Assembly (NCBI GenBank): GCA_036946625.1
Contig: JAQIIU010000001.1
Span: 186,001 to 250,000, forward strand
Source: Methylorubrum populi
GTDB taxonomy: Bacteria; Pseudomonadota; Alphaproteobacteria; Rhizobiales; Beijerinckiaceae
Length of the DNA: 64,000 nucleotides
Direction of reading: 5' to 3'
Every line of letters begins with the position of its first letter. Position 1 is the first letter of the stretch. The position numbers were made by a program, and so were the translations under genes. The notes below the pieces were generated by a model. That model ran no database searches, was not told where the DNA came from, and was given only the letters and a program-made list of their open reading frames with translations. Of the stretch, positions 1,652-64,000 are shown in pieces.

Positions 1652-2529
1652 CAGCGGACTCGTGAGAAGGATTCTTCGTCGAAGCGACGCATGCTGCGGA
1701 TCAGGTCCGGCCAGGCGGGCGGCGCGTAGCCGGTGGCCGCCCGGAACCGGTCCGAGTTGAGGGAGCGGTCGATCGCCACCGCATCGTCGGGCTCGATCTC
1801 GGTCGCGACGCCGTAGACTTGCCCGACGAGGCCGAGCAGGTCGAACTTGCTGATCGGGTCGACGCTGACGTGATAGACGCCGCGTAAGGAAGGGGCCGGC
1901 AGCACGTGATCGGCGATCACCCGCACCAGTTCGTCCGTGGTGAGGCCGGAGAAGATCGCCCGCCGGTAGCCGCGCACGCGCCCGCTCTGGGCGAGGAACC
2001 ACTCGACGAGGCCGTTGCGGCTGCCGGCCTCACGGCCGATGATCGAGGTGCGCAGGGTCACGGCGTTGGGGTAATCGACCTCGCCCAGCAGCTTCGAGCG
2101 TCCGTAGAGATCCTCCGCGTCCGGCGCGTCGCTCTCGCGGTAACCGCCCTTGCGGCCGGTGAAGACGCAATCGGTGCTGACATGGACGAGGCGCGCGCCG
2201 ACGAGGTCGGCGAGCCGCGCCAGCCGATGCGGCAGGATGGCGTTGATGGGAAGCGCGACGAGGGGATCCTCGGCGGAGGCGAGCTGCTTGACGATCCCGA
2301 CGCAGTTCAGGACCACGGCGGGCCGCACCTCGCGCAGGAAGCCGGCGAGCGCGTCCGGGTTGTCGGCATCGACGCCGAGCACGAGGTTTCGCGCCAGATC
2401 CGCCGGAAAGATCCGCTTGGCCGCCGCGGATCGCGCCGAGCCGTGGACGTCACCGGGAAACCGGTCGGAGAGGGCGCGGAAGGCGGCGCTTCCCAGCATG
2501 CCGGAAGCGCCCAGGACTGCGATTTTCAA
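1651..2529 (-). CDS. RmlD-like NAD(P)-dependent sugar-nucleotide reductase
   Basis: Short-chain reductase of 292 residues. It has the nucleotide-binding GASGMLG at residues 7-13, the VSTDCVF block near 117-123 and catalytic Tyr142/Lys146 (YGRSK), the dTDP-4-dehydrorhamnose reductase pattern. The start is TTG at 2529-2527 with an AGAGGA ribosome site 8 bases upstream; no in-frame ATG fits. Lying between a FnlA-type dehydratase and a WecB-type epimerase, it most likely reduces the 4-keto-6-deoxy-HexNAc intermediate. An RmlD-like rather than cupin-containing FnlB/CapF enzyme here resembles the WbvB-WbvR-WbvD arrangement that makes UDP-L-RhaNAc then UDP-L-QuiNAc; this product is inference. Confidence 0.82.
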   Translation of the reverse strand: MKIAVLGASGMLGSAAFRALSDRFPGDVHGSARSAAAKRIFPADLARNLVLGVDADNPDALAGFLREVRPAVVLNCVGIVKQLASAEDPLVALPINAILPHRLARLADLVGARLVHVSTDCVFTGRKGGYRESDAPDAEDLYGRSKLLGEVDYPNAVTLRTSIIGREAGSRNGLVEWFLAQSGRVRGYRRAIFSGLTTDELVRVIADHVLPAPSLRGVYHVSVDPISKFDLLGLVGQVYGVATEIEPDDAVAIDRSLNSDRFRAATGYAPPAWPDLIRSMRRFDEESFSRVR

Positions 2530-2559
2530 TGGTTCATCCTCTGCCGGCGGAGGGCCGCT

Positions 2560-3174
2560 TCAAGCGGCGCGGAATGCGCCGGATTCCGGCGCGGCGGCGA
2601 TGGTCATCGAAGGGCGGCTGCGGAAGTCACGAAGCCACGCTGCGAGCAGGCCGTGTCCCGCGTCCCAGCCAAGCTCCGGCGAGCGCCCGTCGAGGTAGTC
2701 GAGGGCGCAGGCGATCGCGAGATGTCCGAGATCGACGGGCGCCCGCATCCAGTCCGGTTCCGCCTCCAGCCGGTCGAGGATGGCCGCGATCGCCGCCTCC
2801 TGCCGGGCGACGACCCGGGCGATCCGCTCGCCTTCGGGGCCGAGCCGCTCGACGAAGCGGCGGATGACCGCCTCGGCCAGTGCGTCCCCGAGCGCCTCGC
2901 GCCGGAGCGTGTCCCAGCGGCCGGCATCGGCCGGCACCAGCCGGTGTCCGGCGAGCTCGTCGAGATAGCGGGCGATGACGGGCGAATCGAACAGGGCCGT
3001 CCCGTCGTCGAGCAGGAGCGTCGGAACCTTGCAGGCCGGATTGTCGCGACGCAGGGCCGTATCGGTCCAAGGGTCGACCCGCACGAGGCCGACGCGCGCT
3101 TCGAGGCCGAGCTCGGCGATTGTCGCCAGGATCTTTCGCGAGAAAGGAGACCGTGGCGCATAGAAAAGACGCAT
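2560..3174 (-). CDS. Glutathione S-transferase family protein
   Basis: Soluble protein of 204 residues. It has an N-terminal thioredoxin-like domain with Ser9-Pro-Phe-Ser12 at the glutathione-activating position, a KVPTL cis-proline loop near 49-53 and a DSPVI glutathione-binding turn, followed by an all-helical C-terminal domain; length is normal for the family. The substrate cannot be told from sequence. It sits just upstream of the polysaccharide genes on the same strand, separated by 30 bases, but no functional link is implied. The ATG start at 3174 gives the usual MRLFYAPRSPFS opening of bacterial GSTs. Confidence 0.85.
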   Translation of the reverse strand: MRLFYAPRSPFSRKILATIAELGLEARVGLVRVDPWTDTALRRDNPACKVPTLLLDDGTALFDSPVIARYLDELAGHRLVPADAGRWDTLRREALGDALAEAVIRRFVERLGPEGERIARVVARQEAAIAAILDRLEAEPDWMRAPVDLGHLAIACALDYLDGRSPELGWDAGHGLLAAWLRDFRSRPSMTIAAAPESGAFRAA

Positions 3175-3714
3175 GGTCGCGTATCCAGCTTCACTTCGTC
3201 GACCACATTTCTACCTGGTTCGGCATGGATTCGATGCATGGCGATGAAGATTTCTAAATGAGAAAGATTTATCAATCTCTTGAGGCTATCTTCTGAGATT
3301 TCCATGCCGCGTTCCTCAGCTCTCGATGGTGTTCGCCGAGGGAATCTCCGGTGCGGCAGCGATTTCGGATTCTCCGGTGGAAGATCGCTTGCAGGATCGC
3401 GTGGTTTCAGGGCGCGGACGGGCGAAACCTTCACGAATCTGCCGCGCCCCGAACGGCTGCGATCGTATAAATCTTAGCGGAATGAGATGGAAGATCAATT
3501 TAAAGCAGAAATATCTTTAGGATTGTCATCTCAACTTAGAGTAATTCGATGCAGATCTGCGACTTGCGCTGAAATTCACCCGATCGCAGGCTTTGTTTCG
3601 CTGTGCGGGCGCTGGATCTGCCCTCGTGAATGATCTAGGGAGGCGCGCAAGGATGCGGGGTGCATAAACCCTCGGAGCTGCAAGGGCGCATCATGCATCG
3701 GGGAATGCTGGGGA
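3175..3714. other. Intergenic, divergent promoters region
   Basis: 540 bases between the diverging GST and glycosyltransferase genes. The stretch is clearly more AT-rich than its surroundings, especially 3230-3300 and 3470-3560, as expected for promoter DNA and possibly for horizontally acquired sequence. No convincing RNA gene, terminator or small coding region was seen. Confidence 0.4.
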
Positions 3715-5970
3715 ATGGATGCGGTGGGCAACCAAGGTGTCGAAAGCCGCGACCGGGCAGTACGACTTGCTTGGCAGGCAGAAGTCGTATCGATTGCAGT
3801 GCAACATCTCGGCATCGATCTCCTTGAGCGTGATGGGTCTCATCACGATCGTGAGGATCTGCATGTATGGCTGTCCCGCACGTTCGATCGCAGCCTGATT
3901 GCCGCTTCGGGACTCTTCGATCCTGATTTTTACCTGTCCGTGAACGCGGATGTCGCGCAGGCGAAGGTCGATCCTCTTGAGCATTACCTGCAATACGGAG
4001 CTGCCGAGGGGCGGCGGCCAAGTGCTGCGTTCGACGGCGCTCTCTACGTCAGCGCCCACGCTGATCTGAGGCAGTCCGACCTCAACCCTCTCGTTCACTA
4101 CCTCAAGTACGGACTCGGGGAGGGCCGCCTGGCGGGCGTGCCCCGCATCCTTCCGACGCCCGTTAGGGCGGCTGCCGGATCCGGCACGGTGGGCGGCCTC
4201 TTCCACCTTCCTGTACATCGGCCGGAACAGAGCCCCTACGTGGCCGTGCTGGAGCAGCATCTCGCTTTGGAGACGCAGGCGCAGGCCCGCGAGGTCGAGG
4301 CGGAGGGTTTGCGAGCCCAGATCCGATTGCGGGACGAGGAAACTCGCGCACAAGCCGAGGAACTCGCTGCGGCCCGATCGGCAGCGCAAGGGCGGAAAAC
4401 GGAAGGCCAAGCTGCTGTGCAGGTGGCGGTGATCCCTCCGGATCCGCCCTTGTCCGATCCCGAACCGGATGCCCTGCTGCCTGGTCTCCCGGTCCGGATC
4501 GACAAGGACGCGCCCCGCCCACCCAGGCGCGCCGACCTGGACGGCGAGTTCTGCCTCGTCAAGGCCTTCGGCTCATCGCAGATCTTCCTGTTGAGCGGCC
4601 GGTATCCGAGCGTCGTCCGGTATCCAATGCCGCCGCCCGATGGAATTCGGGATCTCGGCTTCGAGTCGGACGCTGTGAGCGAGATTCCGGCCCCCTTTCT
4701 CGATACGATTCCCTTCGGAGCGCCGCGCTTGAAAGCGAGGGGCGAGCCGCATATCGTGTTGATCTGTAGCGCATTCGCGTTCGGCCGTGCCGGCCAGACG
4801 ATCGTTCTCGACGCTCTGGCAGGTGGCTCGAGCCGGACGACGCTGGTCTCGCTTCGCGAAGGGCCCGGGCTGGCGGCTTTCGAAGGCCGTTTCGAAGGCC
4901 CGATCGTTCTGCCTGAAACCGAGCCGTTCTACGCGCAGCACGGCCCTAAGGACTGGGCCGCGAACTCGATCGATGGGAATGCCGGTCTCATGAATCGCTT
5001 CGGCGGTATGTTGAGATCGCTTGAGGCTCGTGTCGAGGTTCTCACGGAAAGGCTGAGGGATTCGAACGTATCGGCCGTCGTGGCATGCAGCGGCGATCAC
5101 CCGGACCTACCCCTCGGAGCTGCGTTGGCGCGTCGGCTCGGCGTTCCATTCTGCGCCTATCTGTTCGACGATCCGGTCTTCCAATGGCAGGACGGCCGGT
5201 TCGACAGCCCCCATGCGCGCTTGATGGAGCGGCAGTGGATCACCGAGGCCTCTGCCATCCTGACACCAAACGAGGAGCTTGGTCGGACGGTGCGGATACG
5301 GAACGAAGATCTCGAGATTCGGTATCCGTTGATCGTGCGTAACCCCATTGGGCACAACATTTCGATTCAATCGGAAGCGCGGCCGCCGAAAGCTGTGGGT
5401 GAGCCATGGATCATTGCCTATACCGGCTCGGTATACCACGCTCAAGCTGATGCCTTCCGCAATTTACTTGAAGTCCTTGAACAAATCGACGAGCCGTGGG
5501 AGATCCACATAGCATCGGAGCAGGACGCGGAGCGGATCAGGCGTGAGGGCATCGGCAGTCCTGCTATCCGCCTGCTCGGCAGCCTGACCCGTGAGGAAGC
5601 CGTATCGCTGCAGCGGCGGGCTGACGTCCTCTTCCTTCCGCTTGCCTTCGAAGCGATCCCGGATGTGATCCGTACGTCTGCTCCGCTCAAGACCGGCGAG
5701 TACCTCGCGTCGGGGCGGCCAATCTTGGTGCATGCGCCGCAGGATGCGTGGTTGAGCCGCTTCTTCCGCGAACGCGGTTGCGGGGTTGTGGTCGATCAGC
5801 CGAAGACCGAGCCACTCAAAGCCGCCCTGAGCCGGCTGAGACACGATCAGAACCTGCGCCAGGAGCTGCTCCGAGCGCAGGTGAAGAGCGCGCAGGAGTT
5901 CAGGCTGGACATGGCGCAGCGCGCTTTCCGGGCAGCGATTGCGAACGTGGTAGCAGAGGGCATTCGATGA
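3715..5970 (+). CDS. Glycosyltransferase with N-terminal FDPxxYL repeats
   Basis: Protein of 751 residues. Two tandem copies of a short repeat (FDPDFYLSVNADV...PLEHYLQYGAAEG, then a degenerate copy ending HYLKYGLGEG) lie near residues 65-135; such repeats are common at the N-terminus of large surface-polysaccharide transferases. A coiled-coil segment rich in Glu, Ala and Arg follows (about 180-225). A GT-B type transferase domain fills the C-terminal half, with the donor-site end motif LKTGEYLASGRPILVHA. It probably acts at the cytoplasmic membrane face in EPS, LPS or capsule assembly. The stop overlaps the next start by four bases (ATGA). Acceptor and donor sugars are unknown. Confidence 0.75.
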   Translation: MDAVGNQGVESRDRAVRLAWQAEVVSIAVQHLGIDLLERDGSHHDREDLHVWLSRTFDRSLIAASGLFDPDFYLSVNADVAQAKVDPLEHYLQYGAAEGRRPSAAFDGALYVSAHADLRQSDLNPLVHYLKYGLGEGRLAGVPRILPTPVRAAAGSGTVGGLFHLPVHRPEQSPYVAVLEQHLALETQAQAREVEAEGLRAQIRLRDEETRAQAEELAAARSAAQGRKTEGQAAVQVAVIPPDPPLSDPEPDALLPGLPVRIDKDAPRPPRRADLDGEFCLVKAFGSSQIFLLSGRYPSVVRYPMPPPDGIRDLGFESDAVSEIPAPFLDTIPFGAPRLKARGEPHIVLICSAFAFGRAGQTIVLDALAGGSSRTTLVSLREGPGLAAFEGRFEGPIVLPETEPFYAQHGPKDWAANSIDGNAGLMNRFGGMLRSLEARVEVLTERLRDSNVSAVVACSGDHPDLPLGAALARRLGVPFCAYLFDDPVFQWQDGRFDSPHARLMERQWITEASAILTPNEELGRTVRIRNEDLEIRYPLIVRNPIGHNISIQSEARPPKAVGEPWIIAYTGSVYHAQADAFRNLLEVLEQIDEPWEIHIASEQDAERIRREGIGSPAIRLLGSLTREEAVSLQRRADVLFLPLAFEAIPDVIRTSAPLKTGEYLASGRPILVHAPQDAWLSRFFRERGCGVVVDQPKTEPLKAALSRLRHDQNLRQELLRAQVKSAQEFRLDMAQRAFRAAIANVVAEGIR

Positions 5971-23980: not shown

Positions 23981-25666
23981 ATGCGCCTGACGCTCAAGGT
24001 CACACTCGTCGCCCTTTTCGGTGGCGTCGCCCTCATCACCGCAGGCCAGGGCGCCATCTCGCTGATGGAACTCTCGTCCATTCGCCAGCACGTGGGCGAG
24101 GTCGCGAAGAACTGGCTTCCTTCCGTCGTGACGGTCAACGAGATGAACGCCGCCGCGAGCCAGATGCGCCTGCGGCAATATCGCATTGTCACCACCTCCA
24201 CCGACCCGGAGAAACTGGCCGCGAACCGGGCCCTCTACGACACGGCGGCGAGCGCGATGGCGGATGCGCGCAGGCGCTACGAGCCCCTGATCTCGTCGTC
24301 CGAGGAGCGGGCGCTCTACGAGCAATTCTCCCGGCTGTGGGCCAGTTACGAACAGGCGAGCCGGCACCTGATCGGTCTGATGGAGCAGGGGCGGCGGCCG
24401 GACGCCATGGCGGAACTCGTCGGACCCGACCTGCTCAAGCTGTACTCCGAGTCCGGCGAGGTTCTGACCCGCGCGGTCGCGCTCAACCGGGAGGGCTCCC
24501 AGCGCGATGCGGACGTCGCCGTGAGCGGCGCCGATGCCGCCTCTCAGATCGCCATCGTCTCGATGGTGCTCGCGATGCTGGCGGCCATCGGGGCGATGGT
24601 CTTCGGCTTCCAGCGGATCTCGCGCCCGATCACCCGCATCACCGGCATGATGGGAGCGCTCGCGGCCGGCGACACCGATGCGCCGGTGCCCTATCGCGAG
24701 CGCCGGGACGAGATCGGCGCGATGGCCGGCGCGGTTCAGGTGTTCAAGGACAACCTGATCCGCACCCGGGCCCTGGAGGAGGAGAGCGCGCTCGCCCGCG
24801 CTTCGGCCGAGGAGCAGCGCAAGGCCGGCATGCGCAGCATGGCCGACGGTTTCGAGACGGCGATCAGCGGAATCATCGGCACGGTGACCGCGGCGGCGAC
24901 CGAGCTGCAGGCCACGGCCCAGAGCATGTCGGGGACCGCCACCGAGACGGCGTCCCAGTCCGTCACCGTCGCCTCCGCGGCCGAGGAGGCCGCCGCCAAC
25001 GTGCAGACCGTCGCCGCCGCGGCCGAGGAACTCGGCACCTCCGTGCAGGAGATCGGCCGTCAGGTGGCGAATTCGTCCGAACTGGCCCAGGCCGCGGTCG
25101 GGGAGGCCGGCGACACCGGGGCGCTGGTGCAGGACCTGTCGAGCGCGGCGGCCAAGATCGGCGACGTGGTGGCGATGATCTCGACGATCGCCGCCCAGAC
25201 CAACCTGCTGGCGCTCAACGCCACGATCGAGGCGGCCCGCGCCGGCGAGGCGGGGCGCGGCTTCGCGGTGGTCGCGGCCGAGGTCAAGCAACTCGCCGAC
25301 CAGACCGCGCGGGCCACCAGCGAGATCGCGCAGCAGATCGGCACGATCCAGGGGGTGACGGGCCAAGCGGTCGCGGCCATCGGCGGCATCGCCGGCCGCA
25401 TCCGCGAGATCAACGGCGTCGCGGCCGCCATCGCCGCCGCGGTGGAGCAGCAGGGGGCCGCGACCCAGGAGATCGTGCGCAACGTCGCCCAGGCGGCGAC
25501 CGGCACGGGCGAGGTGACGACGAACATCTCGGGCGTGGCCGTCGCCGCCGAGGAGACGGGCGCGGCGGCGAGCCAGGTGCTGGGGGCGGCCTCCGAACTG
25601 TCGCGCCAGTCCGAACATCTCTCGGCCGAGGTGGGCCGGTTCCTGGCCACCGTGCGCGCCGCCTGA
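23981..25666 (+). CDS. Methyl-accepting chemotaxis protein (four-helix-bundle sensor)
   Basis: 561 residues from ATG 23981 (an in-frame ATG at 23909 would add 24 unlikely residues before the first membrane helix). TM1 at about 5-27, periplasmic four-helix-bundle sensor to about 185, TM2 about 190-212, HAMP with a P residue (RISRPITRITGMMGALAAGD), then the signalling domain whose hairpin reads [34 protein letters not shown]. No C-terminal pentapeptide for CheR/CheB is present. The signalling half is very similar to the second receptor at 59209-60897; the sensors differ. The ligand is unknown. Confidence 0.9.
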   Translation: MRLTLKVTLVALFGGVALITAGQGAISLMELSSIRQHVGEVAKNWLPSVVTVNEMNAAASQMRLRQYRIVTTSTDPEKLAANRALYDTAASAMADARRRYEPLISSSEERALYEQFSRLWASYEQASRHLIGLMEQGRRPDAMAELVGPDLLKLYSESGEVLTRAVALNREGSQRDADVAVSGADAASQIAIVSMVLAMLAAIGAMVFGFQRISRPITRITGMMGALAAGDTDAPVPYRERRDEIGAMAGAVQVFKDNLIRTRALEEESALARASAEEQRKAGMRSMADGFETAISGIIGTVTAAATELQATAQSMSGTATETASQSVTVASAAEEAAANVQTVAAAAEELGTSVQEIGRQVANSSELAQAAVGEAGDTGALVQDLSSAAAKIGDVVAMISTIAAQTNLLALNATIEAARAGEAGRGFAVVAAEVKQLADQTARATSEIAQQIGTIQGVTGQAVAAIGGIAGRIREINGVAAAIAAAVEQQGAATQEIVRNVAQAATGTGEVTTNISGVAVAAEETGAAASQVLGAASELSRQSEHLSAEVGRFLATVRAA

Positions 25667-50139: not shown

Positions 50140-51003
50140 ATGCCCGATCCGGTCGTCAGCCACCGCCACGTCGCCCTCGGCAGCCTGCGGCTGCACCTGG
50201 CCGAGGCGGGGCCGAGCGACGGGCCGCCCACCCTCCTGCTGCACGGCTTTCCCGAATTCTGGTTCGGCTGGCGGCATCAGATCGGGCCGCTCGCGGAGAG
50301 CGGCCTGCGCCTCCTCGTCCCCGGCCAGCGCGGCTACGGCCTCAGCGACCGGCCGAAGGGGCTTCCCGCCTACCATCTCGACCGGCTCGCCCACGACGTG
50401 ATCGCCCTGGCCGATGCCTGCGGGGCGAAGCGCGTCCGCCTCGTCGGGCACGATTGGGGCGGGCTCGTCGCGTTCTGGACGGCGAGCTTCCACCCCGAGC
50501 GGGTCGAGCGGCTCGCCGTGCTCAACGCCTTCCATCCCGGCGTGTTCGGCGCCTATCTCCGGCACCATCCGGGGCAGGCGCTGCGCAGCGCCTATGCCGG
50601 CTTCTTCCAGCTCCCCCTGCTGCCCGAACGGCTGCTCACCGCCCGCGGCGGCCACCTCCTGCGGGAGCTGATGCGCCGCTCCAGCGCCTCCGACACCTTC
50701 GGCGAGGCCGACCTCGACGTCTACGCGCGGGAATGGCTGCGCCCCGGCGCGGTCACGGCGATGCTCGATTGGTATCGGGCGCTCGCCCGCCTGCCCCGCG
50801 CGCGCCACCCGCCGAAGGTCGCCGCGCCGACGCTGATCCTGTGGGGCGAGCGCGACCGGGCGCTCCAGCCGGGGCTGGCGCAGGCGAGCCTCGCCCTGTG
50901 CGAGCGCAGCCGCCTGCACCGGTTTCCCGAGGCGACCCACTGGGTGCAGCACGACGTGCCCGAGGCGGTCAACGCCGCACTGATCGCGTTCCTGCACGAA
51001 TAG
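50140..51003 (+). CDS. Alpha/beta hydrolase, epoxide hydrolase-like
   Basis: 287 residues from ATG 50140, with GGAGAAAGC immediately upstream. LLLHGFPEFWFGWRHQI gives the HGxP oxyanion motif; nucleophile Asp105 is in VGHDWGGLV; DYWRAL-like LDWYRAL near 208 could supply a lid Tyr; the catalytic His is in THWVQHD near 268. This fits soluble epoxide hydrolases, with haloalkane or haloacetate dehalogenases as alternatives. Monocistronic. Substrate unknown. Confidence 0.85.
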   Translation: MPDPVVSHRHVALGSLRLHLAEAGPSDGPPTLLLHGFPEFWFGWRHQIGPLAESGLRLLVPGQRGYGLSDRPKGLPAYHLDRLAHDVIALADACGAKRVRLVGHDWGGLVAFWTASFHPERVERLAVLNAFHPGVFGAYLRHHPGQALRSAYAGFFQLPLLPERLLTARGGHLLRELMRRSSASDTFGEADLDVYAREWLRPGAVTAMLDWYRALARLPRARHPPKVAAPTLILWGERDRALQPGLAQASLALCERSRLHRFPEATHWVQHDVPEAVNAALIAFLHE

Positions 51004-51380
51004 GAACCGGCGCCGGGCCAGAGGCCCCGGCGCCCGTTCGCATCCGGAAGCTCCCCGCGGTCGTGTCGGCGGCCGCTCATGCCGACGCCGCCACTCTCGC
51101 CGCTGCGCGAGCCGAATTCCATGCCGCCGCGCTGCGCGCCGTCGATGGCCGCGGGCTGAGCGGAGACCGAGGGCTCGTCAGCCACGCGGCGGCAGCCGGC
51201 ACATCGGGCAAATCGTTGAGCCAAACAAGGTCGCCCTCCACGTCGAGCGAGCGGTCGGGGCAAGGACCTCCGCGTTGAAGGCGAAGGTCGCAAGTACAGT
51301 CAAGGCTGGCAAACCGCGCAGGACGCCATAGGTTGGTGCCGTCTAAAACAGCGTCTCCTAATGCGGGGCTATCGACGGCA
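51004..51380. other. Intergenic at the start of the sulfur island
   Basis: 377 bases. The plus strand has a protein-like frame for about 40 codons (HADAATLAAARAEFHAAALRAVDG...) without a start or a recognised family; it may be a gene remnant. The region marks the change from housekeeping-like genes to accessory genes. No tRNA or att-like repeat was found. Confidence 0.3.
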
Positions 51381-57491: not shown

Positions 57492-58127
57492 ATGAACCGC
57501 AGGACCCTGCTCGCCCTACTGTCGGCTGCCGCCCTGGCGCCGGCCCTGCTGTCGCTGGCGCCGCCCGTCGAGGACGCGTTCGCGCAAGGCGTCGATCCGA
57601 ACGCCATCCTCAACGACCCCGAGGCGCCGGTCTCGGGCAACCCGAAGGGCGACCTGACCATCGTCGCCTTCCTCGATTACAACTGCCCCTTCTGCAAGAA
57701 GTCTCACCCGGACCTGGAGCGGCTGGTGAAGTCGGACGGGCGCATCCGCCTCGTCCACAAGGACTGGCCGATCCTGGGCGACGCCTCCGTCTACGGCGCA
57801 CAGCTCGCGCTCGCGGCGAAGTACCAGGGCCGCTACGACGAGGTGCACAAGGCGCTCATGGCCATCCCGGGCCGCAAGATTCCGAAGGAGCGGATGCTGG
57901 AGGCCGTGTCCGCCTCGGGCGTCGACATGGCCCGGTTGGAGGCTGACCGGAGCGCCCATGCGAGCGAGATCGCCGCGCTGCTCCAGCGCAACCTCGACCA
58001 AGCCGATTCCCTCGGCCTGCAAGGCACGCCGGTTTACCTCATCGGCCCGCTGAAGGTGGCCGCCGCCCTCGACTACGACGGCTTCAAGCAGGCTGTCGCC
58101 CAGGCCCGCGCCAAGGGCCGCTCGTGA
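57492..58127 (+). CDS. DsbA-family thioredoxin-like protein
   Basis: 211 residues with signal peptide (1-32). The active site is Cys65-P-F-Cys68 ([15 protein letters not shown]); the cis-proline loop is in [12 protein letters not shown] near 176-187; KDWPILG follows the first strand pair. The family (Com1/DsbG-like) acts as periplasmic oxidase, isomerase or reductant. A partner for the upstream DsbD is likely; the two genes are 35 bases apart. Confidence 0.9.
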
Positions 58128-59008
58128 TGCGGCGAATCGTGATGCGGCGGACCCTGCACTTGCCGGCGCTGATCGCGCTCGCCTCGGCACTCGGCGCCTG
58201 CACGGTCTCGGTGGGGGCGCCGGCCCCGAGCGCGCAGGTCCGGCCGGCCATCGGTCCCGAAGCCCTACGCCGGTACGCGGCCGTCACGGACGAGCCGTTC
58301 CCGGTGGAGGCGGTCGCGCCGCGCGACATCAAGGCCCGCAACGTCCGCCAGATGGTCCACTACCCGACGAAGGAGCCGCCCGGCACCCTCGTGATCGACC
58401 CCTACGGGCGCTTCCTCTACCTCGTCATGGAGGGCGGCAAGGCGATGCGCTACGGGGTCGGCGTCGGCAAGGCCGGACTGGAATTCACCGGCGAGGCGAC
58501 GGTGGCCCGCAAGGCATCCTGGCCGCGCTGGACGCCGACGTCCGACATGATCCGGCGCGACCCCAAGCGCTACGGACCTTGGGCCGGCGGCATGGCGGGC
58601 GGCGACAGGAACCCGCTCGGCGCGCGCGCCCTCTACCTGTTCGAGGACGGCAAGGACACGCTCTACCGCATCCACGGCACCACGGAGCCCTGGAGCATCG
58701 GCGAGGCGGTCTCCTCGGGGTGCATCCGCATGCTGAACCAGGACGTGATCGACCTGCACCGGCGCGTCCCGATCGGTACGCGCGTCGTGGTTCTGGGGCC
58801 CGGGGGCGGCGCCGCGCACGCCGCGCGTCGCGGCCCCACGGAGGTCACCGGGAGCGTAGGCGCACGGCCCGGACGGGCGCAGCCGCCGGGGGACGGCCTC
58901 GATCACGCGACCCTCGCAGGCTTGTCCGCCGATGCGGTGGAGGACCGAGGGCGGATCGGGAGGAGGCGGGCGACGGAAGACGCCTCCGACGACGTGCCGG
59001 GGCGATGA
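58127..59008 (+). CDS. L,D-transpeptidase lipoprotein (YkuD domain)
   Basis: 293 residues from ATG 58127, which overlaps the previous stop (TGATG). A lipobox LGAC places the acylated Cys at 25. The YkuD catalytic motif [20 protein letters not shown] holds His and nucleophile Cys199. It forms 3-3 cross-links or attaches proteins in peptidoglycan. Residues after about 232 are low-complexity and lie in a 326-bp repeat also found at 60924-61249, so the true C-terminus may be altered by that duplication. Confidence 0.9.
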
Positions 59009-59145
59009 GGCGGGCGGGCGGTCATTGGGCGATCACGGCGGCACGATGCCGGAGGGCGGCGCGTTCTGGCCGAGGAGGACCCCGTCGACGGTCCGGCCAT
59101 GGAAGTCGAACGGGTCGTCGTGGTGCGCCTTCCGCGTTTCGGTGA
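58820..59145. repeat. 326-bp direct repeat, left copy
   Basis: Matches 60924-61249 with about eight mismatches, all transitions. The first 217 bases after one mismatch at 58828 are identical; seven of eight differences lie in the last 100 bases. The copy spans the 3' end of the L,D-transpeptidase gene and a fragment of the 3' end of the cytochrome c gene. Confidence 0.92.
59033..59145 (-). pseudogene. Fragment of cytochrome c gene, C-terminal 37 codons
   Basis: Minus-strand translation reads LTETRKAHHDDPFDFHG then RTVDGVLLGQNAPPSGIVPP and stop, matching the C-terminus of the dihaem cytochrome encoded at 61137-62108. It is a 5'-truncated copy created by the 326-bp duplication and has no start. 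Confidence 0.85.
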
Positions 59146-59208
59146 GGAATGTGAACGAGAACAATTAACCAATCTAGGGCAAGCTGCCGATGTTGCCGAG
59201 GTGTCGCC

Positions 59209-60897
59209 ATGCTGCAAAAGTTGACCATCCGCACAAAGCTGTTTGCCTCCTACGGTCTGCTCACTCTTTTCGTGATTGGGATTGGCGTTCTCGGCGTAAG
59301 AAGTGCTTCCGCGATCAATGCTCTTCTGATTGAAAGTCAAGCCAGGGATCTTCGCAAAACACAGACGATTGGCGAGATCAACGATTGGGCCGGACGGATT
59401 ACTATCAGTTTGTTCCGTTATACTTTGAATGGCCGCGACCCACAGATCGTAGAGCAAACTGATGTCGAAATGCAACAGCGGCGTAATGAAATAGATCGGC
59501 TGATCAGATTATACGAAAAATTCCCGAAATCCGATACAGAGGCGCGAGTGTTCGCAAGCTTCAAAAAGAATTGGGTGACTTACATCGCGTCGATCCCGCC
59601 ACTGCTAGAGCTGGCGCGCGAGGGGGACATCGAGCGAGCTCGTAAGATGATCGACTCGATTGTCACCGTGCACCGGAAGCGTGCCCTCGACGATGCCAAG
59701 CAACTCTACACCTTCGCCAAAGACTCCGCCGCCAAGGCCGGAGGCGCGGCGGCTGAGACTTACGAATGGGTGCGCAACCTCGTTGTGGGTGCCTCCGTCC
59801 TCGCCGTATTCGCATCCGTGTTTCTCGGCATCCTTATCGTCTGGAGTATCGGACGTGATTGCGCTGGGATCATCATCCCGATGCAGGCGCTGGCCGCTGG
59901 TGACCTCTCTGCCGAGGTGATGGGGCGGGGGCGCCGGACCGAGTTCGGCACGATCGCCGACGCAGTGCAGGTGTTCAAGGAAGCCATGATCCGCATGCGG
60001 GCGCTGGAGGCGGAGACCGTCCAGGCACGACTCGCGGCCGAAGAGCAGCGCAAGGTCGGCATGCGCGAGATGGCCGATGCCTTCGAGCGCGCGGTCGGTG
60101 GCATCATCGGCATGGTCTCGTCGTCGGCCACGGAGTTGCAGGCCACGGCGCAAACCATGACGGCCACCGCGACCGAAACGGCGAGCCAGTCCACGATCGT
60201 GGCTGTGGCGGCGGAGGAAGCGGCCTCGAACGTCAGCACGGTCGCCGCCGCCGCCGAGGAGCTCGGCGCCTCCGTGCAGGAGATCGGGCGTCAGGTCGCC
60301 GGGTCGGCCGACTTGGCGCAGGCCGCTGTGGCAGAGGCGGACCAGACCGCCACGCTGGTGCACGAACTCACCACGACGGTCGCCAATATCGGCGAAGTGG
60401 TGGCGATGATCTCGGGCATCGCCTCGCAGACCAACTTGCTCGCACTCAACGCCACCATTGAGGCCGCGCGCGCCGGTGAGGCGGGGCGCGGGTTCGCGGT
60501 CGTGGCAGCCGAAGTCAAGGCGCTTGCCGACCAGACCGCGCAGGCGACGGATGAGATCGGCCGCCAGATCGGGCAGGTGCAGGGGGCGACGGGTCATGCC
60601 GTCTCCGCCATCGGCGGCATCGGGGGGCGCATCCGCGAGATTAGCACCCTGGCCGCCTCCATTGCGGCGGCGGTGGAGCAGCAGGGGGCCGCGACGCAGG
60701 AGATCGTGCGCAACGTCGGGCAGGCGGCGACCGGCACCGGCGAGGTCACGAGCAACATCGCGGGCGTGGCAGGAGCGGCGGAGGAGACGGGGACGGCGGC
60801 CGCACAGGTGCTCGCCTCGGCAGGTGAACTCTCCCGCCAATCGGAGCATCTCTCGGCCGAGGTCGCGCGCTTCCTCCAGACAGTGCGCGCCGCCTAA
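59209..60897 (+). CDS. Methyl-accepting chemotaxis protein inside a repeat-flanked cassette
   Basis: 562 residues. TM1 about 10-32, periplasmic four-helix sensor (33-185), TM2 about 190-212, HAMP, and a signalling domain with hairpin [34 protein letters not shown]. The N-terminal half has much lower GC (for example 59210-59580) than the C-terminal half, which closely resembles the receptor at 23981. No C-terminal pentapeptide. It is flanked by 326-bp direct repeats. Ligand unknown. Confidence 0.9.
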
Positions 60898-60923
60898 GCA
60901 GCTCCCATGAAAGCGCGGGGGGT

Positions 60924-61112
60924 GCCGCGCGCCGCGGCCCCACGGAGGTCACCGGGAGCGTAGGCGCACGGCCCGGACGGGCGCAGCCGCCGGGGGACGG
61001 CCTCGATCACGCGACCCTCGCAGGCTTGTCCGCCGATGCGGTGGAGGACCGAGGGCGGATCGGGAGGAGGCGGGCGACGGAAGACGCCTCCGACGACGTG
61101 CCGGGGCGATGA
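60924..61112 (+). pseudogene. Fragment of L,D-transpeptidase gene, C-terminal tail
   Basis: Encodes the same tail as 58820-59008 ([10 protein letters not shown]-like to DDVPGR and TGA) without the catalytic domain or a start codon. It is a by-product of the duplication. Confidence 0.8.
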
Positions 61113-61249
61113 GGCGGGCGGGCGGTCATTGGGCGATCACGGCGGCACGGTGCCGAAGGGCGGTGCGTTCTGGCCGAGGGGGACCCCGTCGACGGTCCGG
61201 CCATAGAAGTCGAACGGGTCGTCGTGGTGCGCCTTCCGCGTCTCGGCGA
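60924..61249. repeat. 326-bp direct repeat, right copy
   Basis: Second copy of 58820-59145 at an offset of 2104 bases. It contains a fragment of the L,D-transpeptidase 3' end (60924-61112) followed by the genuine 3' end of the cytochrome c gene. Confidence 0.92.
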
Positions 61250-62108
61250 CCGAGCCCTCGAAGCGTGGATCCTGCGGCCGTTCGCGGCTGTCGATGAAGG
61301 CCGCGACGGACCAAGCCTCCTCGTCCGACAGGGTGTTGCCCTGGCCGAGCGGCATGTTCGCCTTGATGAAACCGGCGGCGTTGGCGACCGAGCTCATGCC
61401 GGCTCCCCAGTTGTAGGACCGCGCCCCCCAGAGTGGCGGGGACACGGTATGTCCATCCGTGGTCGCCTGGCCTTCCCCGCCCGCACCGTGGCACAGGGCG
61501 CATTTGGTGGCATAGACGTCCCGCCCGTGCGCGATGTCGAGCGAGGCGGGCCGCGCCAGCTTGGGGTACCCCCGGCCTGGCGGGCTCAGGCCGGTCCGCG
61601 CTCCCCGTGCCAGGAAGAAGGCGTAGCTCTCCAGCGCGACCAACACCGGATCGCCGAGCGGCGGGGCCTTGCCGTTCATGCTGTAGCGGAAGCAGTCCTG
61701 CAGCCGCTCCGCGAAGGTGTTCACGTGCCGGTTCTTGGCGCGATAGGCCGGATAGTTCTCGTAAGCGGCCCAGAGCGGCGCCGAGCCGGGGAGCCTGCCG
61801 CCGTCGAGGTGGCAGTTCGAGCAGCGCAAGTCGTTGCCGACGAACCCGCGGGCGTGCGTCCCGGTGTCCTGGAAGATGTCCCTGCCCATCCGGACCATCG
61901 TCCCGAACGGGTCGTCCGGGATGGCGCTCTCCGGTGGGGGCTGGAAGTGCTCCGCAGCGGTTCCGGCTGGGTCGGGTCGGCGCGTCTGTTCCGCTTGGCC
62001 ACCGCTCGTCCCCTCGGCCCTGGGAGGCCTTTGCCCGACGAGCACGATGAGGCCGAGCGAGGCCGCTCCGACGGCCCACACCCACGCTCCCGGAACACGC
62101 TTGCTCAT
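61137..62108 (-). CDS. Dihaem cytochrome c, TsdA-like thiosulfate dehydrogenase
   Basis: 323 residues from ATG 62108. N-terminal membrane or signal helix (9-25). Two haem sites: Cys96-SN-Cys99-His100 and Cys203-AL-Cys206-His207. Cys139 in LQDCFRYSMNGK aligns with the unusual Cys axial ligand of haem 1 in TsdA; SPPLWGARSYNWGAGM and FIKANMPLGQGNTLSDEEAW match the TsdA C-terminal domain. TsdA oxidises thiosulfate to tetrathionate or the reverse. Adjacent DsrE and YeeE genes support a sulfur role. The stop end lies in the right repeat copy. Confidence 0.85.
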   Translation of the reverse strand: MSKRVPGAWVWAVGAASLGLIVLVGQRPPRAEGTSGGQAEQTRRPDPAGTAAEHFQPPPESAIPDDPFGTMVRMGRDIFQDTGTHARGFVGNDLRCSNCHLDGGRLPGSAPLWAAYENYPAYRAKNRHVNTFAERLQDCFRYSMNGKAPPLGDPVLVALESYAFFLARGARTGLSPPGRGYPKLARPASLDIAHGRDVYATKCALCHGAGGEGQATTDGHTVSPPLWGARSYNWGAGMSSVANAAGFIKANMPLGQGNTLSDEEAWSVAAFIDSRERPQDPRFEGSVAETRKAHHDDPFDFYGRTVDGVPLGQNAPPFGTVPP

Positions 62109-62395
62109 CGCGGACCTCCGCTTTGCGTCGCCGGGACGGGCAGGCTCGCATAGTAGGCGGCGACGGCGGCGACCTCGTCGGCGGTGAGCTTGGCCTTGTC
62201 GATCCAGCCGGGTGTGGGGCCGGCCGTGACCTGAACGTCGATGCCGCGGGCCTTGCCGAAGGTCTCCGCCGCCTCCTTGATGGCCGGCAGCGGGCCCCTG
62301 GGCCCGTAGACCAGGACCCTGGCCGGGGCGGCGTGGGCCGCGCCGACGAGGACGAGCGTCAGGATCGTGGCGAGAATCCGGGCGGTGCGGGGCAT
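62105..62395 (-). CDS. Chimaeric protein: solute-binding N-terminus fused to cytochrome c C-terminus
   Basis: 96 residues with signal peptide (1-22). Residues 25-68 (VLVYGPRGPLPAIKEAAETF, TAGPTPGWIDKA) match the start of a type-2 periplasmic solute-binding protein; residues 69-88 (KLTADEVAAVAAYYASLPVP) match the terminal helix of small class I cytochromes c. No CxxCH motif remains. The pattern indicates a deletion that joined two genes in frame at about codon 68. It overlaps the dihaem cytochrome start by four bases. Probably without either original function. Confidence 0.65.
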   Translation of the reverse strand: MPRTARILATILTLVLVGAAHAAPARVLVYGPRGPLPAIKEAAETFGKARGIDVQVTAGPTPGWIDKAKLTADEVAAVAAYYASLPVPATQSGGPR

Positions 62396-63933: not shown

Positions 63934-64000
63934 TCAGACGCGAAGGTAGCTCCACCCGGCCTCCTGCAGCGCGACGAGCCGGACGGCGCCGGCGCGGACC
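63934..64000 (-). CDS. 3' end of an unidentified gene (cut by window)
   Basis: The minus-strand frame ending at TGA 63936-63934 reads VRAGAVRLVALQEAGWSYLRV. The ending resembles those of rhodanese-like or exported domain proteins, but 22 residues do not allow an assignment. Confidence 0.3.
   Translation of the reverse strand, partial: VRAGAVRLVALQEAGWSYLRV

Follow-up and report, generated by a model that had tools for sequence, protein, structure and literature searches.

Direct duplication of the target around an inserted fragment has been described following conjugation in Escherichia coli. In excerpts of that report (PMC3240628), 56 of 60 recombinants were positive for a duplication-diagnostic PCR product, and the 14 of these 56 that were sequenced carried duplications of 109-950 bp, which the authors ascribe to linear DNA that recircularised and then integrated by a single crossover. 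The locus described here shares with these recombinants the direct target duplication around an insert, with 326 bp duplicated. It differs in that the E. coli events involved a laboratory plasmid and a selected marker, whereas here a natural insert of one gene lies between repeats whose divergence is mosaic. Homology-facilitated illegitimate recombination in transformable bacteria is similar in its one-sided homology, in end joining on the opposite side and in its short non-mobile insert. According to the same excerpts (PMC3240628), however, that process generally yields an insertion plus a deletion, as opposed to the duplication seen here. Merodiploid formation by interchromatid integration of transforming DNA, as set out in excerpts of PMC3784515, occurs when one fragment bridges sister chromosomes and leads to a duplication; most of these duplications span 107-936 kb between pre-existing repeats, unlike the present case, and the same source also describes a 3.3-kb duplication lacking flanking repeats.

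The window analysed is a stretch of 64,000 nucleotides (contig positions 186001-250000) from the Methylorubrum populi genome, which comprises 4.79 Mb in 3 contigs. Two direct repeats enclose a chemoreceptor gene in this window (Table 1). Their alignment spans 326 columns with eight differences and no gaps (97.5% identity), the copies lying 2104 bp apart from start to start. All eight differences are transitions; the transpeptidase part has one, at 58828, and the cytochrome part has the other seven, at 59046-59143. The BLAST E-value for the pair, approximately 1e-158, excludes chance. The original prediction had described two copies of approximately 97.5% identity, each with a transpeptidase-cytochrome c junction, whose layouts differ by a 1.78-kb receptor piece; the alignment agrees, a recount of the transitions and of their distribution gave the same result, and the unique insert measures 1778 bp. 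A search of the genome places the 326-bp segment at these two positions and found no third copy. Furthermore, no other direct repeat reaches 100 bp and 85% identity within 20 kb across the 124 kb of contig scanned, and the same scan applied to relatives (16 stretches, 10.9-80 kb each) returned none. Both neighbouring genes keep both of their ends, so that junction, insert and recombined segment are legible base by base. A scan of 58.9-61.2 kb for promoters and terminators returned none of either.

Table 1 Features of the chemoreceptor locus and its flanking repeats, in window positions
Feature	Position	Strand
L,D-transpeptidase (YkuD) gene, intact ORF, 3' end inside repeat copy 1	58124..59008	+
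Repeat copy 1: live transpeptidase 3' end, intergenic region and cytochrome c 3'-end remnant	58820..59145	
217-bp stretch without any difference between the copies, 2104 bp apart	58829..59045	
Cytochrome c 3'-end remnant, differs from the live gene end at 7/113 sites	59033..59145	-
Unique insert of 1778 bp (receptor gene with 63 bp before and 26 bp after it), in which no gene of a mobile element was seen	59146..60923	
Chemoreceptor, 562 aa: 4HB_MCP_1 sensor (aa 4-182) and MCPsignal domain (aa 369-526)	59209..60897	+
Repeat copy 2: transpeptidase 3'-end remnant, intergenic region and live cytochrome c 3' end	60924..61249	
Transpeptidase 3'-end remnant, differs from the live gene end at 1/189 sites	60924..61112	+
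Cytochrome c gene (323 aa), intact ORF, 3' end inside copy 2	61137..62108	-
Left edge of conserved sox block continuing past the window (SoxC, SoxB, SoxA, SoxX, SoxY)	63934..64000	-

The insert carries the receptor gene alone. Its gene-like size and the presence of repeats at both ends could bring to mind a transposon, an integron cassette, another site-specific element or an assembly artefact. The repeats, however, belong to host genes. No recombinase was seen by Pfam in the eight genes of 55.7-63.9 kb (receptor included), and inverted repeats reaching 20 bp are absent from 57-63 kb; transposon and integron cassette were rejected on these grounds. A tRNA-targeted element was likewise discarded, as 50-64 kb contains no tRNA. 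As for an artefact, the copies differ at eight sites and their outer flanks are unlike, making a simple assembly duplication unlikely. We therefore regard this whole group of explanations as extremely improbable.

The empty site is supplied by a relative, G110, in which homology runs from the transpeptidase gene through the whole segment into the cytochrome gene. G110 thus has one unbroken copy of the junction, as seen in the listed matches to the 110 other genomes of the genus; the survey scored two places per genome, and other genomes may carry the junction too. The best sensor match in G110 is 33%, and the uninterrupted junction that the original prediction proposed to look for is hence present in a genome with no close receptor. 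With target copies bounding the insert here and a single target in an uninserted relative (one relative, G110), the structure is real and is best explained as an insertion-duplication of a known kind. In a further relative, G025, the transpeptidase and cytochrome genes lie approximately 8 kb apart, which suggests that the joined junction may itself be derived.

Other differences occur on the cytochrome side. The G110 cytochrome gene matches only up to window position 61781, and G110 holds approximately 2 kb (L054, about 2237-4233) with pentapeptide-repeat-like and thioredoxin-like frames (by eye) ahead of a solute-binding gene. In the window, a frame of 96 aa at 62105-62395 (-) starts with a resemblance to a solute-binding protein (PF13531, below cut-off) and ends in a cytochrome-like tail by eye. 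At this place G025 holds approximately 4.6 kb extra, with approximately 4 bases common to both sides at the joint. This comparison suggests a deletion by which two genes were fused.

We consider it probable that the insertion-duplication arose by recombination anchored in the transpeptidase-cytochrome junction. Starting from the two genes converging on a single junction, as in G110, a short non-mobile fragment with the chemoreceptor, probably already joined to the cytochrome 3' end of another strain, would have entered and recombined with the junction via homology on one side. The other side would have been closed by end joining, either following recircularisation (in which case the left part was converted at some point after a single crossover) or directly onto the sister chromosome. 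The outcome would be the receptor with 89 bp of flank between two junction copies, both neighbours remaining intact. We infer both the donor structure and the order of these steps. None of the 3 receptors of this subfamily in 111 genus genomes revealed the supposed donor arrangement, a receptor attached to a cytochrome tail, the two other known receptors not being adjacent to the junction. The 63-bp and 26-bp insert flanks gave no clear match to the flanks of these two receptors, and any microhomology at the joint is therefore not readable. Ku was not found in the M. populi genome (only B. subtilis was positive in 14 control genomes). Ku-dependent end joining was therefore rejected, and end joining would need another route.

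The distribution of differences between the copies is uneven, with 1/189 in the transpeptidase part, 0/24 in the intergenic region and 7/113 in the cytochrome part. Fisher's test gives p = 0.003 for 1/213 versus 7/113, a post hoc value on eight sites in all, for which the split at the gene boundary is natural yet was picked after the data were seen. The earlier statement that the copies are young is not supported in that form, as it relied on an average that pools these two very unlike parts. Relative to G110, differences are more frequent in the transpeptidase part (28-29 of 189 sites) than in the cytochrome part (11-14 of 113); the contrast between the copies thus runs opposite to the expected rates. 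Using G110 and G025 as outgroups, copy 1 was found to have changed at 59046, 59101, 59138 and 59143, and copy 2 (the live gene) at 59052, 59060 and 59076. With G110 as sole outgroup, four cytochrome changes fall on copy 1 and one on copy 2, leaving two without assignment. The difference at 58828, polarised by G110, is a change in copy 1 at a third codon position of the live transpeptidase gene. The 4:3 split obtained once G025 is added indicates that the cytochrome excess is not simply decay of a dead remnant, and decay as the sole cause was dropped. The seven differences occupy codon positions 2, 2, 3, 2, 1, 3 and 1, while 6 of the 11 differences between copy 2 and G110 are at position 3. This spread does not resemble a comparison of two live alleles, and drift following the duplication is the more favoured reading. 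A single young duplication would not readily account for the cytochrome contrast; the contrast could be explained if the two cytochrome parts descend from alleles of separate origin, or if the duplication is old and its left part was converted recently.

This contrast bears directly on a strict circle model, in which a 2.1-kb circle bearing receptor and junction integrated by a single crossover, leaving two equally old and unconverted copies. While the footprint, the insert content and the published precedent agree with such a circle, differences between donor and recipient would be expected along the whole repeat, and the post hoc comparison above shows that they are not distributed in this way. 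A donor diverged by approximately 6% should also differ in the transpeptidase part, yet beyond the cytochrome part the copies differ at only 1 of 213 sites. If the circle came from a near-identical strain, the cytochrome excess must have arisen later in both copies. We consider the strict model improbable, although a circle would be rescued if the left part was converted later. What stands of the origin first proposed, a circle or a captured receptor, is recombination with target duplication, which fits both the empty site in G110 and the duplications of 109-950 bp in E. coli (excerpts of PMC3240628); the unconverted circle of a single age is not supported, the differences failing to extend along the whole repeat, transpeptidase tail included. 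Repair synthesis with template switching could yield the same layout without a donor junction or Ku, if a fork that had copied the junction then moved to a receptor template and resumed 326 bp upstream. The copies would then have been identical at the start, so that 1/213 versus 7/113 requires conversion in this case too. In addition, no second copy of the receptor was found in the M. populi genome that could have served as template (the next sensor match listed is 26%, and the upstream flank occurs once), and we judge template switching to be very improbable.

Set against recombination anchored in the junction is the gene order in Methylobacterium sp. Leaf123 (G059), left flank - receptor - sox, from which the receptor could be resident. 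To the left of the Leaf123 receptor, following approximately 1.6 kb, lies the same flank as in window 10-51 kb, with homology to window position 50994; the edge of the same sox block (window 63934) lies approximately 148 bp from the receptor. If this order was ancestral, a transpeptidase/cytochrome module shared with a G110-like lineage would have been assembled around the receptor by one or two recombination events, from pieces overlapping by 326 bp. The flank is indeed unjoined to the module in the stretches fetched from G110, G107 and the second G075 sox locus. Identity to G110 per kb is 90-95% for the left module and 89-92% for the right part, as compared with 86-88% for the flank (47-51 kb), whether measured against G110 or Leaf123; these figures suggest transfer of module and sox genes between lineages. 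The sensor identity of 63% to Leaf123 is comparable to that of two other M. populi receptors, whose best Leaf123 sensor matches are 75% and 64%; the receptor therefore need not be foreign. However, the overlap of two module pieces by 326 bp would be a coincidence, the receptor flanks have no clear match to those of Leaf123, and an intact junction existed, as G110 demonstrates. Over the sox block G110 is slightly nearer than Leaf123 without a sharp switch, so that a recombination point is not visible. We regard a resident receptor as rather unlikely. The capture of an arbitrary newcomer, as the original prediction could be read, may nevertheless not apply, since the two nearest relatives of the receptor also lie by sox, one of them between the same left flank and sox.

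The left flank has a recurrent edge. Homology to Leaf123, G110, G075 and G107 stops at approximately 50990-51144 of the window, marking the border of a variable region. G075 holds two copies of the sox-edge block (L105 and L127), 86% and 77% identical to that of the window, the second approximately 12 kb from the same flank.

The receptor is a methyl-accepting chemotaxis protein of the 4HB class, with the 4HB_MCP_1 sensor (PF12729, E 9.4e-26) and MCPsignal domain (PF00015, E 2.9e-28) that typify the class, both above the Pfam cut-offs. The sensor differs from those of other 4HB-type proteins in that it belongs to a rare subfamily, all three found members of which adjoin sox clusters. While the receptor has 21 matches in its own genome, itself counted, a sensor of at least 63% identity is present in 3 of 111 genus genomes: M. 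populi itself, M. goesingense DSM 21331 (G019, 67%) and Leaf123 (63%). The next among the matches listed reaches 38% over a partial sensor (G058). Of 397 family genomes drawn, M. populi and Leaf123 alone exceeded 38%, and 9 of the 397 gave E-values up to 1e-20; M. goesingense is absent from these hits and was presumably not drawn. A search for the same receptor elsewhere, as originally proposed, has thus yielded close sensors in two genus genomes and no second copy in its own.

The first 420 bp of the receptor gene have a GC3 of approximately 0.57, as opposed to values of 0.76-0.89 for the two related genes. That the sensor half is low in GC was dropped as proof of foreign origin, as a paralog in the same genome (L037) has a milder form of the same gradient. 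Plasmid or phage carriage also found no support: tblastn with the sensor against plasmids gave 1 record at 25%, megablast of 58-62.2 kb against plasmids gave 22 records with none covering at least 80% of the query, and a viral-contig scan gave 5 pattern stretches and no relatives. The window holds a second chemoreceptor gene at 23981-25663 (+), within a stretch of approximately 2 kb where Leaf123 has 0.8 kb, and only short repeats surround it.

To the right of 63934, the neighbouring block encodes SoxC, SoxB, SoxA, SoxY and SoxX, all above NCBIfam cut-offs. In M. goesingense, the receptor adjoins a homologue of the gene at 74.5-75.6 kb in the window frame (YeeE-like by eye), at the opposite cluster end; the link to sox depends on a 208-bp overlap at 98% between two contigs, which is good but not proof. 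All 3 subfamily members therefore adjoin a sox thiosulfate-oxidation cluster, at three positions and in one case via this contig overlap. Common descent with local rearrangement is possible as the background to this shared neighbourhood, three members being few. A search by title and abstract start, in which subscription journals lay mostly outside the scope, found no paper on the locus or on a sox-linked chemoreceptor. We find the recurring neighbourhood mildly interesting.

Recombination across the 217 identical bases would allow present-day loss of the receptor, and its precise loss is a reasonable prediction. A broader and doubtful proposal is that the subfamily repeatedly re-enters or moves within Methylobacterium sox loci and guides cells to thiosulfate or a related compound, in which case the 326-bp repeats would be the scar of one such move and the gene would be precisely losable. 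From sensor type and neighbourhood, the putative function of the receptor would be to direct taxis to a sulfur compound that the sox cluster processes. The sox linkage thus offers a specific ligand hypothesis, in which the putative ligand of the receptor would be a sulfur compound.
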